From assembly GCA_900113385.1 (NCBI GenBank), contig FOPE01000013.1:1-64000 (forward strand): 64,000 nucleotides of DNA, given 5' to 3'. Of the stretch, positions 12,385 through 56,703 are shown in pieces (the first letter of the stretch is position 1; the number at the start of each line of letters is the position of its first letter). The stretch is from Lachnospiraceae bacterium C7. GTDB taxonomy: Bacteria > Bacillota > Clostridia > Lachnospirales > Lachnospiraceae. The notes beneath the pieces are model-generated. The model was not told the origin of the DNA. It ran no database searches and saw only the letters and a program-made list of their open reading frames with translations. Position numbers and translations under genes: made by a program.

Positions 12385-12650
12385 AAAACTCCCGTCCTTA
12401 AAAAAGGACGAGAGATAACTCGCGGTACCACCTTTGTTTGCATACTTATTGCTAAGAATGCCTCTGTAAGTGTCAATCAACACTTTAGTGCAATAACGAG
12501 CACCAATCCGTTGCAGCCTAATAGGTAAAAAACCGTTCAGTGCAATGCTAAAGGATGTATTCAGTAATTAATTAATCTAAAACCTCTCATCAACCGGTAA
12601 TTTTCTGTAGATGTCATAAATACTTACTTGTTCCTTATTATTGCTTTATC
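12385..12650 (-). promoter_or_regulatory. T-box riboswitch of tyrS
   Basis: On the complement the conserved T-box GGTGGTACCGCG lies at 12432-12421, followed by a terminator stem CGTCCTT/AAGGACG (12393-12410) and a T run. Uncharged tRNA-Tyr would pair its 3' end with the T-box and prevent termination. A candidate tyrosine specifier, UAC in GAAUACAUCC, lies at 12559-12557. The 5' boundary is approximate. Confidence 0.88.
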
Positions 12651-27673: not shown

Positions 27674-27907
27674 ATGGTAAATCCAGCATCTATTATGAAA
27701 ATGATGTCTCTAAGAAACAAATTTGTAGGAAATCATCCTAAGGTTGCAGAATTTTTTAAAAAGGTATTAGCAAGTGGACTTCCAGAAGGTACAGTTATTG
27801 AGATGACAGTTACAAAACCAGGACAGGAGCCAATTACTGCAAATATGAAGGTACTTCAATCTGATATTGAAATGATGGAAGAACTTAAGAATTTAAGTGG
27901 AAAATAA
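27674..27907 (+). CDS. Conserved-looking small cytoplasmic protein, unknown
   Basis: The 77-residue product (starts MVNPASIMKMMSLRNKFVGN) has a helical N-terminus with two basic stretches, a central AxGLPEGTVIEMTVTKPGQE beta-like segment and an acidic-helical C-terminus. The upstream GGTGAAAAT is a weak ribosome site. No family recognised. It is a monocistronic gene ended by a strong terminator at 27959. The 200-base gap before it holds AT-rich DNA with no clear element. Confidence 0.6.
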   Translation: MVNPASIMKMMSLRNKFVGNHPKVAEFFKKVLASGLPEGTVIEMTVTKPGQEPITANMKVLQSDIEMMEELKNLSGK

Positions 27908-28132: not shown

Positions 28133-28288
28133 AAGTGATATGTTTCCGCTTTAGGCACAGGGTACAAAAACATTGTTTCAACACTGAAAATATCGCTTTC
28201 TGTTGTGAATCCAACAATTAGCGGAAAAAATAGAATTACCATAATTACCATCTTGTCATGGACAGAGGCGGAAACGGTTTAGTCACTT
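28133..28288. ncRNA. Noncoding segment closed by long-range complementary arms
   Basis: AAGTGA (28133-28138) and GTTTCCGC (28142-28149) pair with GCGGAAAC (28268-28275) and TCACTT (28283-28288), closing about 155 nt. Inside, CAACA with TGTTG and GAAA with TTTC near 28190-28220 form another hairpin, and CAACA near 28230 offers an alternative partner. A long closed rod with an internal bubble recalls 6S RNA, but no conserved sequence could be checked. No clear terminator follows. Strand is unresolved. Confidence 0.3.
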
Positions 28289-28389
28289 TTAGGATAATTT
28301 ATAAAAAGTTAGTTGTGCATAATGGTGAAAAAGTGCAAAAATCGCAAAAAACACTGGATTATTTTGGTATATATTGCTATAATATTACA

Positions 28390-28836
28390 TGTACCTGATA
28401 AATAATGAAACAAGGAGGGAGTAATTATTATTAATAAGATGGTATAAAGGAAAAATTATCAGGGTGTATAGTAAATCGATAAGTTGATCACGGCGAGGCT
28501 TGTTGGTTTGTTAATAAGGCGTAAGTAAAACAGGCAATATCAATATGAGAGAGTTGAATAATTAAAATGTTTTAATTCTAAGCACGTTGGGGAGCGGCGC
28601 TTGAGGAATAAATTGGGAACAGGGATATAAAATATATTAGGAATGCAATATATAGTCATAAACAGATGAATAATCATCAAACTTTATTTATCACATTGAG
28701 AGGTAAGTCGTTTGGGGAAGCGACAAGCCTAGTCGAATTAAAATGGAGAAGTACTATTAGGTTGGGGGACCAATAGGACGTAAAAGAAGACACTACTTGA
28801 TAACTGTGGGGACAGTTATTGAAGTAGTGTCTTTTG
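28390..28836 (+). ncRNA. Large structured RNA candidate with UGGGGA hexaloop hairpins
   Basis: A -10 TATAAT (28378-28383) leads to about 450 noncoding nt ending in a terminator (AGACACTACTT and complement, 28787-28831). Stems include CCTGATAA (28394-28401) with TTATCAGG (28456-28463), GCTTGTT (28498-28504) with AACAGGC (28529-28535), and four hairpins whose loops are UGGGGA or UGGGGG at 28588-28593, 28713-28718, 28763-28768 and 28807-28812, the last inside the terminator. No ORF with a start fits. It is not recognisable as RNase P, tmRNA or SRP RNA. Large ornate RNAs of other classes, or a multi-site protein-binding RNA, are options. Confidence 0.65.
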
Positions 28837-28852
28837 TTTATATAATCTAATT

Positions 28853-29245
28853 TTATTTTTTTTGTAAAGTATGATTCTTTAGGTTTTCTTTGGCAATGGT
28901 TTTGTCTAGCTTAATATAACCATTGCTCTCTAAAATATAGATGAATTTAACAAGCCTATCATAAAGCGGTTCTGCCTCTTTTCCAAACTTTGTATGAACA
29001 GCCTTACCAATTGTATATACAGTTGTTTTGCCATCGATACGGGTCCAAATATAGCTTCCTAGAGGGTCCATATCTAAACGGCTTACAGCTGGTCGCTTGA
29101 AAAATTTCTGAGCCACCTTATCGAAGAATTTATTGTTTTCCTGAATTATAGTTACTATGCCTTCGTCATTTTTTTCCCATTTATAATCAGGGTTATGAGA
29201 AGGTACATAGTCTAAATAATTTTCTGCTTTTGATTTTTTTGCCAT
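28853..29245 (-). CDS. PqqD-like protein (RiPP-recognition-element fold)
   Basis: The 130-residue cytoplasmic protein contains a PqqD-like winged-helix core: GIVTIIQENNKFFDKVAQKF, then SRLDMDPLGSYIWTRIDGKT and TVYTIGKAVHTKFGKEAEPL. Such domains bind leader peptides of ribosomal peptides in RiPP pathways, but many stand-alone copies exist. No radical SAM or precursor-peptide gene is adjacent; an OPT-family peptide transporter lies 160 bp upstream on the same strand, separated by a terminator at 29344-29386. It may bind a peptide or act as a regulator; this is inference. AAAGGAG precedes the ATG. Confidence 0.75.
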   Translation of the reverse strand: MAKKSKAENYLDYVPSHNPDYKWEKNDEGIVTIIQENNKFFDKVAQKFFKRPAVSRLDMDPLGSYIWTRIDGKTTVYTIGKAVHTKFGKEAEPLYDRLVKFIYILESNGYIKLDKTIAKENLKNHTLQKK

Positions 29246-29405: not shown

Positions 29406-31358
29406 TTAGTTTTTCTTGTTTTTTCTTAATGTAAAGTATACTAAGCTTACGATTAATAATGCAAAGAATGCGATTCCACCGAAGTCTCCAAGTAATGTGT
29501 TTGGACCACCGATAGCAATTACGTCAGCAAGTGTGCTATTGCCACTCATTGGAACGATAGCAAAGATTGCAAGTAAGATACCAATGATACCTTCTCCGGC
29601 AATTAAACCTGATGAGTAAAGGATACCGTTTGTAATCTTTTCGTCTTTTTCAGCTTCAGTCTCGTGTTTCTTAATGTTTTCTACATAGTATCTAACAAGT
29701 CCACCAATCATAATTGGAACTGAGATACTGATTGGTAAGTATAAACCAATGGCGATTGGAAGTACAGGAAGTTGTAATACTTCAAGTGTAACTGCAATTG
29801 CAACACCAGCAAATACTAATCCCCAAGGTAAGTTACCACCCATAACACCTTCAACTACGAGTTTCATTAAAGCAGCTTGTGGAGCTGGAAGTGAATCTGT
29901 ACCATATCCCCAAGCACGATCTAATAAGTATAATACACCAGCAATAGCAAGACCTGATGAAATTACACCGATGAATTCACCAATCTGCTGTCTCTTTGGA
30001 GTAGCACCTACGATGAAACCAGTTTTTAAATCTTGTGATGTATCACCAGCGATAGCTGCGATGATACAAATTACAGTACCAATCATGATTGAAGCAATCA
30101 TTCCGTTGATACCTGTATTACCAGTAGCTTTAAGAAGAGCTGTTGCAATTAATAATGTGGCAATAGCCATACCAGATACTGGGTTATTTGAACTTCCTAC
30201 TAAACCTACCATACGAGATGATACAGTTGCGAAGAAGAAACCAAATACTAAAATAAGAATAATGGATCCAAAATTAAATGGAAGTCCAGGTGTAAGTAAG
30301 AGAACAACACAAATAACTAGAACGGTAGCAAGGATAAATGGTAATGGTAAATCCTGGTTAGTTCTGAGTGATGTATCAGCTGAAGAATCTTTTTCCTTTA
30401 AAGATTTTAAGTTATCAGCGAATGTTTTAATAATAAGTGGTGTAGATTTAGCAAGTGAAATAATACCACCTGCAGCTACGGCACCTGCACCGATATAACG
30501 GATGTAGTTTTTCCATAAGTCTGCTGGAGCAAGAGCAGAGATTGCCATGTTTTTATCAGCTGATGCTACAACTGGTAAAACAATTGCATCTCCACCGAAA
30601 ATGCTGATAAGTGGCATGATTACGAACCAAGCTAATAATCCACCGGCGAACATATAAGAAGCAATCTTAAGTCCGCAAATATAACCAACACCGGCTAAGG
30701 CTGGAAGAATATCTCCACCAATAGCAGAACCTTTGTATTTTTTTATATCAAAGTTAACGCTACTTGGGAAAATCTTTAATCCATCAGCGATAAATTTATA
30801 AGCTGCTGAAATTCCAAGACCAGCGAATACAGTACTAGCAGCAGAACCACCAGTTTCACCAGCGATAAGAACTTCGGCACAAGCTGTTCCTTCTGGATAA
30901 GGAATTACACCGTGCTCTTTTACGATTAACGCACTACGAAGTGGAATCATAAATAAAACACCAAGTAAACCACCTGCAATTGAAACAATTGCAATAGCAG
31001 GGAAGGAGATTGTTGCTCCTTTGTGTCCTTCACGTAACCACATGAAGATTGCTGGTAAAGTAAAGATAGCACCAGCGGCTAATGACTCACCGGCAGAACC
31101 GATAGTCTGTACAAGGTTATTTTCAAGGATTGAATCACGTTTTAAAACAAAACGAATTAATCCCATTGATACTACTGCAGCTGGAATAGAAGCTGAAACT
31201 GTCATACCAACACGAAGTCCAAGGTATGCGTTAGCAGCACCAAACACAACTGCAAGGATCACACCAAGAATAATTGAAGTCACTGTAAGCTCTGGCGCAA
31301 CTTGGTCAGCAGCTACATATGGCTTAAATTCTTGGCTAGAAGAGTTTGCTTTTTTCAT
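29406..31358 (-). CDS. OPT-family oligopeptide transporter
   Basis: The 650-residue membrane protein has about 15 hydrophobic helices and the OPT family text: ELTVTSIILGVILAVVFGAA near the N-terminus, NAYLGLRVGMTVSASIPAAV, YPEGTACAEVLIAGETGG and SGLIAGEGIIGILLAIFAIV near the C-terminus. Family members import peptides or metal-peptide conjugates by proton symport. The start follows AAGGAG. Nothing in the sequence fixes the substrate. The downstream PqqD-like gene may be a partner. Codon use and length are ordinary for the family. Confidence 0.93.
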   Translation of the reverse strand: MKKANSSSQEFKPYVAADQVAPELTVTSIILGVILAVVFGAANAYLGLRVGMTVSASIPAAVVSMGLIRFVLKRDSILENNLVQTIGSAGESLAAGAIFTLPAIFMWLREGHKGATISFPAIAIVSIAGGLLGVLFMIPLRSALIVKEHGVIPYPEGTACAEVLIAGETGGSAASTVFAGLGISAAYKFIADGLKIFPSSVNFDIKKYKGSAIGGDILPALAGVGYICGLKIASYMFAGGLLAWFVIMPLISIFGGDAIVLPVVASADKNMAISALAPADLWKNYIRYIGAGAVAAGGIISLAKSTPLIIKTFADNLKSLKEKDSSADTSLRTNQDLPLPFILATVLVICVVLLLTPGLPFNFGSIILILVFGFFFATVSSRMVGLVGSSNNPVSGMAIATLLIATALLKATGNTGINGMIASIMIGTVICIIAAIAGDTSQDLKTGFIVGATPKRQQIGEFIGVISSGLAIAGVLYLLDRAWGYGTDSLPAPQAALMKLVVEGVMGGNLPWGLVFAGVAIAVTLEVLQLPVLPIAIGLYLPISISVPIMIGGLVRYYVENIKKHETEAEKDEKITNGILYSSGLIAGEGIIGILLAIFAIVPMSGNSTLADVIAIGGPNTLLGDFGGIAFFALLIVSLVYFTLRKNKKN

Positions 31359-31634
31359 CTTTTTTCTCCTTTATATTTAAGTTGAGTTTATATGTATGTA
31401 CGAGTGGGTTATATATAAATTTGTGCTGGAAATACAAAAAACTGAAAGTGTATTAATAATAGCTTAACAGAAATGCATCCCACACAAACAAATGTAATCG
31501 TACGAATTACAATTATAGCATAAAGTTGTATAAAAAAAAAGACGATAAGGTACATATTAATAGAATAATTATGCAAAAAATAATAAAATTCCCTTATATT
31601 TATTCTATTAAAGCTGGCAGTAGAAAAAAAGGGG

Positions 31635-31663
31635 TTGTTAAAAAAAGCTTCTTATAGTATTAT
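31635..31663 (+). promoter_or_regulatory. Sigma-A promoter of the cobalamin-riboswitch operon
   Basis: TTGTTA (31635-31640), 17-bp spacer, TATTAT (31658-31663), about 25 bp before the riboswitch. The rest of the 31359-31634 gap is AT-rich with nothing else clear. Confidence 0.6.
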
Positions 31664-31686
31664 TGTCAGTGAAATTTTGACAAACG

Positions 31687-31912
31687 CAATAGGTGTCGAC
31701 TATTTAGAACTTTGCAGATAGCTTAGTAACCCTATTTTTACAGGGGATAAGAGCTTATAATTGCAAAAAATCAGTCGGTGAAAAGGGAAACAGGTTAGAA
31801 TCCTGTACGAACTCGTCACTGTATTTGGTGTTCAAGCACATGCCACTGAGAAATTGGGAAGGCGCTAGATTAGGACAATGTACCACACCATAAGCCAGGA
31901 GACCTGCCTATT
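31687..31912 (+). promoter_or_regulatory. Cobalamin (B12) riboswitch
   Basis: P1 pairs CAATAGG (31687-31693) with CCTATTG (31906-31912). The core has AAAGGGAAACAGGTTAGAAT, CACTGT, GCCACTG, TTGGGAAGGC and the B12 box AGCCAGGAGACCTGCC (31893-31908). Adenosyl- or other cobalamin binding would lower expression of the five-gene operon, through the terminator at 32096-32127 just ahead of the first gene. Confidence 0.95.
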
Positions 31913-32095
31913 GTTATACAAAAGCTTTAGCTTTTACCACGAGTAATTGGTAGTATAATATTTAGAAGTTTTGTTGTTATATATGTTGGTTCGGTAAATT
32001 ATCGTTATTTTGCTTTATTGTTAACTGATAAAATAAAATACTAATTTACTCCTTTTTTATGCCCCCTAATATGTAGCAACTGTTTCTTTTTCGGC

Positions 32096-56457: not shown

Positions 56458-56611
56458 TTAATCACACCTTTCTTAATATAATATAAAATGAAATATTTTT
56501 TGATTTTGCCTATAGTATTATAACATATTAGATATGCTTATTGTAATCATGCAAATTAATTATAATGCGTTATTTTCGTTGAAAATATAAGAAAGAATGT
56601 GCTATATTGAA

Positions 56612-56681
56612 GTGGGTTATATAAGCCTGTAATGGGGTCAGGCGTTTCTACAACTACCGTAAATAGTTCACTATAACTCAT
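56612..56681 (+). promoter_or_regulatory. Purine-class riboswitch (guanine-type specificity base)
   Basis: P1: GTGGGTTAT (56612-56620) with ATAACTCAT (56673-56681). P2: GCCTG/CAGGC near 56624-56643. J2/3 GTTTCTAC, P3 AACTA-CCGTAAA-TAGTT and J3/1 CACTAT follow, as in the purine aptamer; the C in CACTAT is the base that marks guanine binding. Loop L2 (UAAUGGGGU) differs from the usual GAUAUGG but keeps GG for kissing with CC of L3. The ribosome site AAGGAGG lies 6 bases past P1, suggesting translational control. Confidence 0.82.
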
Positions 56682-56703
56682 AATAAGAAGGAGGTAATCT
56701 TTT

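Follow-up and report, generated by a model that had tools for sequence, protein, structure and literature searches.

The candidate RNA gene and its locus

The window analysed here is a stretch of 64,000 nt from Lachnospiraceae bacterium C7 (source genome, G000), in which the intergenic region 28384-28840 is flanked by a gene of 77 aa (27674-27907, + strand) and a convergent PqqD-like gene (28853-29245, - strand; Pfam PF05402), followed by an OPT transporter gene (29406-31358, - strand). A homolog of the region was found, at the same locus and with the same gene order, in one other genome of the genus, that of the second carrier species (G040). The following elements, all on the + strand, were delineated:

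28254..28277, upstream element TGTCATGGACA-N5-GGAAACGG, conserved, 100 nt ahead of the -10 and perhaps bound by a regulator
28355..28383, promoter with a weak -35 TGGATT, a 17-nt spacer and an extended -10 TGC-TATAAT (28375-28383)
28390..28838, candidate noncoding RNA of ~450 nt, its ends placed from the promoter and the terminator hairpin
28394..28463, P1, in which CCUGAUAA (28394-28401) pairs with UUAUCAGG (28456-28463)
28402..28423, invariant block AUAAUGAAACAAGGAGGGAGUA inside P1, containing the CsrA-like ACAAGGA (28410-28416)
28470..28512, P2 hairpin with a conserved tip AGUUGAUCACGGYGAGGCU and a covarying 7-bp base
28580..28602, H1, AAGC-A-CGU-UGGGGA-GCG-GC-GCUU, with the core CGU-UGGGGA-GCG at 28585-28596
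28707..28724, H2, GUCGUU-UGGGGA-AGCGAC, with a UGGGGA loop
28754..28776, H3, CUAUU-A-GGU-UGGGGG-ACC-AAUAG, with a UGGGGG loop at 28763-28768 and A28759 bulged
28779..28789, invariant CGUAAAAGAAG, which runs into the terminator hairpin
28785..28835, H4, terminator hairpin, with AUAACUG-UGGGGA-CAGUUAU at 28800-28819 (loop 28807-28812), a long hairpin in the minimum free energy (MFE) structure

We take this to be a real structured RNA gene. An initial inspection of the letters (the sequence-only reading) had proposed a noncoding RNA of ~450 nt bracketed by a promoter and a terminator, which agrees with the extended -10 kept in the second carrier, the terminator-like hairpin and the absence of any ORF of at least 60 aa on either strand of the RNA stretch. 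The -35, the -10 and their spacing are all kept in the second carrier, and this conserved promoter sequence would drive a free-standing transcript of ~450 nt. A consensus promoter scan, which demands at least 4/6 matches in each hexamer, did not report the promoter, and a terminator scanner reported nothing at the 3′ end of the RNA, where the hairpin is long and the T run interrupted. When folded (28384-28840), the region reaches an MFE of -106.5 kcal/mol, with a z-score of -5.0 relative to 100 shuffles. The upstream element is identical in the second carrier except for the 5-nt spacer, and the exact pattern occurs once per genome in both carriers, which suggests that transcription may be regulated; its GGAAACGG end vaguely resembles the core of a CcpA site.

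A protein-coding gene was considered and rejected, the comparison of the two carriers revealing no conserved reading frame. No short ORF of the + strand (at least 12 codons) is common to the RNA and its homolog over the full length. A TTG frame of 13-14 codons has the same start in both species and is shifted by a 2-nt gap, and a 36-codon ORF of the source genome has no same-start counterpart in the homolog, its last codons, at H3, lying in the frame of a 21-codon ORF of the latter.

The covariance search of Rfam 15 at gathering threshold gave no match to a catalogued family, in line with the novelty that the initial reading had made dependent on such a check. At E-values up to 10, only two matches were obtained, far below gathering scores and both over the terminator region, one of them on the opposite strand; the stretch upstream of the RNA gave nothing credible. 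A literature search on UGGGGA loops and on structured RNAs of Lachnospiraceae found nothing relevant, PMC11109978 and PMC6429828 being checked for a small set of words on genus, family and size.

Repeated UGGGG[A/G] hairpins and their conservation

The four hairpins with a UGGGGA or UGGGGG loop first noticed by eye are all present in the sequence, the 5′ start of the third having been placed one base off. An equally good reading of each loop is a GGGG tetraloop with a U-A closing pair, or U-G in the case of the third hairpin. The RNA of the source genome holds four copies of the motif UGGGG[AG], whereas 2000 dinucleotide shuffles average 0.56 and never reach four; the homolog holds three (0.45 expected, P 0.006). 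Four copies within 235 nt form the densest cluster in a 367-kb sample of the genome, in which two other places hold three. In addition, at least three flanking pairs enclose the motif in 4/4 cases in the RNA and 3/3 in its homolog, versus 10 of the 107 occurrences elsewhere in the sample. The GGGG loops and AAGGAGGGAG are predicted to be mostly unpaired; in the source genome, the unpaired probability of the loop G is only ~0.3 for three of the four in H2 and ~0.5 for two in H3.

Several parts of the gene are identical or near-identical in the second carrier, namely the extended -10, the 5′ block (30 nt identical from 28394), the P2 tip, H2 and H3 in their loops and inner stems, and the block preceding the terminator (CGUAAAAGAAG, 11 nt identical). 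By comparison, identity in 30-nt bins is 30-70% ahead of the promoter, and the central part of the RNA (~28530-28650) does no better, with 43-54% per bin in an alignment that misplaced H1. The initial claim that unrelated stems carry conserved loops holds for H1-H3, whose loops are kept, but not for the terminator hairpin H4, whose loop is not; the evolutionary signal therefore consists of three loops rather than four.

Compensatory changes in the stems, which had been set beforehand as a test together with invariant loops, were found in the second carrier, but this is one relative only. H1, misplaced by MAFFT, was found there with the same loop and has the same shape in the MFE structure, including the 1x2 internal loop. 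All four pairs of its outer helix are changed on both sides, a count that does not amount to proven column homology since the helix was registered by hand; two-sided changes concern 0/4 pairs of the inner stem. At the base of P2, two of seven pairs are changed on both sides, two on one side and none is broken. The loop and inner stem of H2 are identical and 2/7 pairs show two-sided changes, the outer pairs going from U-A to A-U and from G-C to U-A. H3 keeps its loop and, apart from one one-sided change, its inner stem, with one two-sided change (1/9 pairs) and one broken pair further out. Pooled over six hand-registered helices (31 pairs), 15 pairs are unchanged, six changed on one side, nine on both sides and one is broken. 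The covariation of P1 and P2 is weak by a shuffle control (116/500 shuffles reach the observed score), as two sequences permit little more. Both strands of P1 are identical in the two species and so carry no covariation signal, and its helix is absent from the single-sequence MFE structure of the homolog. We take the repeated hairpin to be kept by selection at the loop.

Distribution of the RNA

The RNA is lineage-specific or fast-diverging, with two species of one genus as carriers so far. BLAST against 40 relatives at an E-value of 0.001 retrieved the source genome only. Within the genus, 47 of the 62 genomes gave a match at E up to 1, of which only the two carriers fell below 0.001, the rest being short matches (up to 10 candidates scored per genome). 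Two covariance models, R1 for the 5′ part of the RNA and R2 for H2-H3, scored convincingly in the same two genomes alone among the 62. Three weak places for R1 (E 0.09-0.52) were judged to be chance from the alignments of all three and a reading of two loci. Nine weak places were obtained for R2 (E 0.013-0.86); the best four of the nine were aligned and two were read, both appearing by eye to be coding. In 397 genomes of the family, which spans at least 334 genera, R1 matched the source genome only, with stricter filters, at most eight candidates scored per genome and the second carrier not among the sample. The exact motif pattern likewise occurred in the source genome only among these 397 and was absent from viral contigs, and plasmids and phages gave no match to the RNA.

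The neighbouring 77-aa gene is present in 44/62 genomes of the genus. At 30 of its loci (up to 1.5 kb on each side, both strands), the H2 and H3 strings were found only in the two carriers. None of the other 28 holds more than two of the six short motif strings tried, and each has at most one UGGGG[AG] with three flanking pairs per strand, with up to three UGGGG[AG] in 235 nt. The 77-aa gene alone is thus no guide to the presence of the RNA. Two distant PqqD-like loci held no motif beyond one match with two mismatches.

Possible partners of the loops

The structured RNA probably acts in trans, and a CsrB-like sponge had been put forward for its loops. A sponge of the CsrB/RsmZ type would bind several CsrA dimers through GGA loops and single strands, thereby freeing flagellar and carbon-storage mRNAs. 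Like CsrB, CsrC and RsmZ, the RNA is a free-standing structured molecule with a G-rich loop motif repeated on unrelated stems, in a genome that encodes csrA; this gene (PF02599) was detected in 58/62 genomes of the genus, both carriers included. The GGA triplets are mildly more exposed than in shuffles (mean unpaired probability 0.72 and 0.74 in the two species versus 0.57 and 0.65, reached by 2% and 7% of 60), and their density ranks second of 118 intergenic strands, level with a third, in a rough scan. The two GGA of the block AUAAUGAAACAAGGAGGGAGUA are predicted to be unpaired at 93-98% in the source genome and 82-100% in the second carrier, and the invariant ACAAGGA, also predicted to be unpaired, fits the ACA and GGA of the CsrA SELEX consensus (PMC7652899), so that CsrA may bind there without the RNA being a CsrB. 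However, GGA is not enriched: each species has 13, a number that 27% and 50% of 60 dinucleotide shuffles equal or exceed (30% and 42% with 2000 shuffles), whereas E. coli CsrB in the same test has 22 GGA versus 14.2 (reached by 2%) and 17 exposed GGA versus 4.4 (reached by 0%). The repeated UGGGG[A/G] loops do not fit the hexaloop ANGGAN described for RsmE (PMC7652899), being without its A, and the GGA of the third runs into the stem. Moreover, the host is not a gammaproteobacterium and has fliW (Pfam FliW) adjoining csrA in the source genome, while CsrB-family sRNAs are named for Gammaproteobacteria and FliW as the protein that antagonises CsrA in B. subtilis (PMC7652899). We therefore consider a CsrA sponge quite unlikely, and the proposal is not supported for the loops. 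Independently of the RNA, a divergent CsrA-like frame (~80-175 aa, 30-65 bits) was observed in many species of the genus, mostly beside a standard CsrA (~90 bits); it was not seen in the two carriers, which have one CsrA match each.

Base-pairing partners of the loops were sought as well. CCC, UCC and CUC are absent from the RNA in both species, which leaves the loops without a strong partner inside the molecule. UCCCC occurred at none of 272 sampled translation starts (-40..+20; control windows 0-3; ~13% of the genome sampled). The two genomes together hold 17 matches to the 10-nt complement pattern of loops 2 and 3, with eight versus six for the reversed control in the source genome and nine versus one in the second carrier (two of the nine being the RNA itself). 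Of these, four fall on the antisense strand of the RNAs themselves and 11 on that of an ORF; one is sense within an ORF and one lies outside ORFs of at least 80 aa, opposite to the strand of both neighbours. The complement pattern of the 5′ block gave 32 versus 44 for the reversed control in the source genome and 54 versus 46 in the second carrier. With no UCCCC at the 272 starts and a single sense-strand 10-nt complement of loops 2 and 3 within an ORF, antisense action of the loops is weak as a candidate. No C-rich sRNA partner was recognised in the 367-kb (13%) sample, nor by exact 10-mers in both genomes; of the UCCCC occurrences in its noncoding sequence, three were read closely and yielded no convincing sRNA. 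Shorter loop-loop contacts, or shorter C-rich stretches as partners of the loops, are possible.

These results bear on a sponge of the RosA/RsaI type, in which the G-rich loops and the AAGGAGGGAG strand would trap other small RNAs by their C-rich seeds. Several accessible GGGG loops without a C-rich partner inside the RNA, the excess of loop-2/3 complements over the reversed control in the second carrier and the vaguely CcpA-like end of the upstream element would all suit it. According to PMC8216469, there is precedent in Firmicutes. RosA of B. subtilis, ~229 nt long and repressed by CcpA, is described there as the first sponge to be confirmed in a Gram-positive bacterium; three of its regions are G-rich and potentially complementary to the C-rich RoxS and FsrA. 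RsaI of S. aureus contains two G-rich regions. Similarly to RosA and RsaI/RsaOG, the present RNA is a stand-alone molecule of Firmicutes with several exposed G-rich regions, but it is about twice as long as RosA, carries its G runs in GGGG hairpin loops and has no Rfam match. No C-rich partner RNA was recognised in the sample, and the long complements of loops 2 and 3 are almost all antisense to ORFs; we regard such a sponge as unlikely. A structural or multimeric (ornate) RNA, with GGGG loops engaged in tertiary or intermolecular contacts such as a G-quadruplex among the loops of one or several copies, would account for a large, well folded, lineage-specific RNA with conserved loops, and GOLLD, ROOL and OLE are reported to form homo-oligomers (PMC12286853). 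The likeness to these three is that of a large structured noncoding RNA; the differences are its size of ~450 nt, the lack of evidence for oligomer contacts and the absence of a match to ROOL, part of the early suggestion, or to the other families catalogued in Rfam. Since the RNA has no C-rich loop for kissing (no CCC) and the second carrier keeps just three GGGG tracts in hairpin loops, this explanation appears very unlikely. A fortuitous cluster of G-rich hairpins, in an intergenic stretch that is transcribed but has no function, would agree with the failure of the searches run to find the RNA in 60/62 genomes of the genus and with its poorly conserved middle. Yet the promoter, the 30-nt invariant block, the P2 tip and covarying stems are kept in a second species whose upstream sequence has diverged, and the fold is far more stable than its shuffles, making chance highly improbable.

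We tentatively favour a trans-acting RNA, specific to its lineage, in which the GGGG hairpins would serve as repeated binding sites, most likely for a protein. Loops kept while stems change, UGGGG[AG] beyond shuffles in both species and the stability of the fold argue for it, and a protein is the partner suggested by a loop that is conserved although no base-pairing targets are evident; the restriction to two sequences, the unconserved H4 loop, the poorly conserved middle and the excess of loop-2/3 complements over the reversed control in the second carrier argue against it. The hairpins of variable stem ending in U-GGGG-A/G would then be several copies of one binding site on which an RNA-binding protein could dock, and the RNA might titrate or gather several copies of this protein, while the invariant AACAAGGAGGGAG close to the 5′ end may also be bound, by this partner or by a different one. 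We know of no protein that binds UGGGGA hairpins. It is conceivable, if rather doubtful, that the RNA represents a new family in which the U-GGGG-R hairpin docks an unrecognised RNA-binding protein of Firmicutes, or CsrA at a non-canonical site, as a protein-titrating sponge of Clostridia. Should a protein bind the loops, a handful of point mutations together with a single pull-down would identify a regulator of motile Clostridia that binds RNA; should C-rich RNAs bind them, the principle of RosA and RsaI would extend to Clostridia.

Other RNAs were noticed in the course of this work. Rfam identified three known elements in the window:

12401-12650, - strand, T-box leader
31755-31925, + strand, cobalamin riboswitch, preceding a CbiK-like gene and another whose NEAT match is below cut-off
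56597-56693, + strand, purine riboswitch

A second large noncoding RNA candidate of ~600 nt lies in the source genome at G000:C72:~31050-31665 (+), with a fold z-score of -3.2 (20 shuffles); an Rfam search that allowed E-values up to 1 gave no match to it. The candidate ends shortly upstream of an exonuclease III-like gene, recognised in the second carrier by Pfam Exo_endo_phos and in the source genome from its first codons. A DNA search matched 14/62 genomes of the genus, its own included, at E up to 1e-4, so that this candidate is conserved more widely than the ~450-nt RNA with GGGG loops. In an alignment of six species, GGAGGUACGGUCCAAAAGGAAC, AAGAAGCAACC and GAGGUAUAGUCCAUUGGAAA stand out as consensus blocks, and the terminator stem covaries, most of the two-sided changes (9/32 predicted pairs) being located in it.
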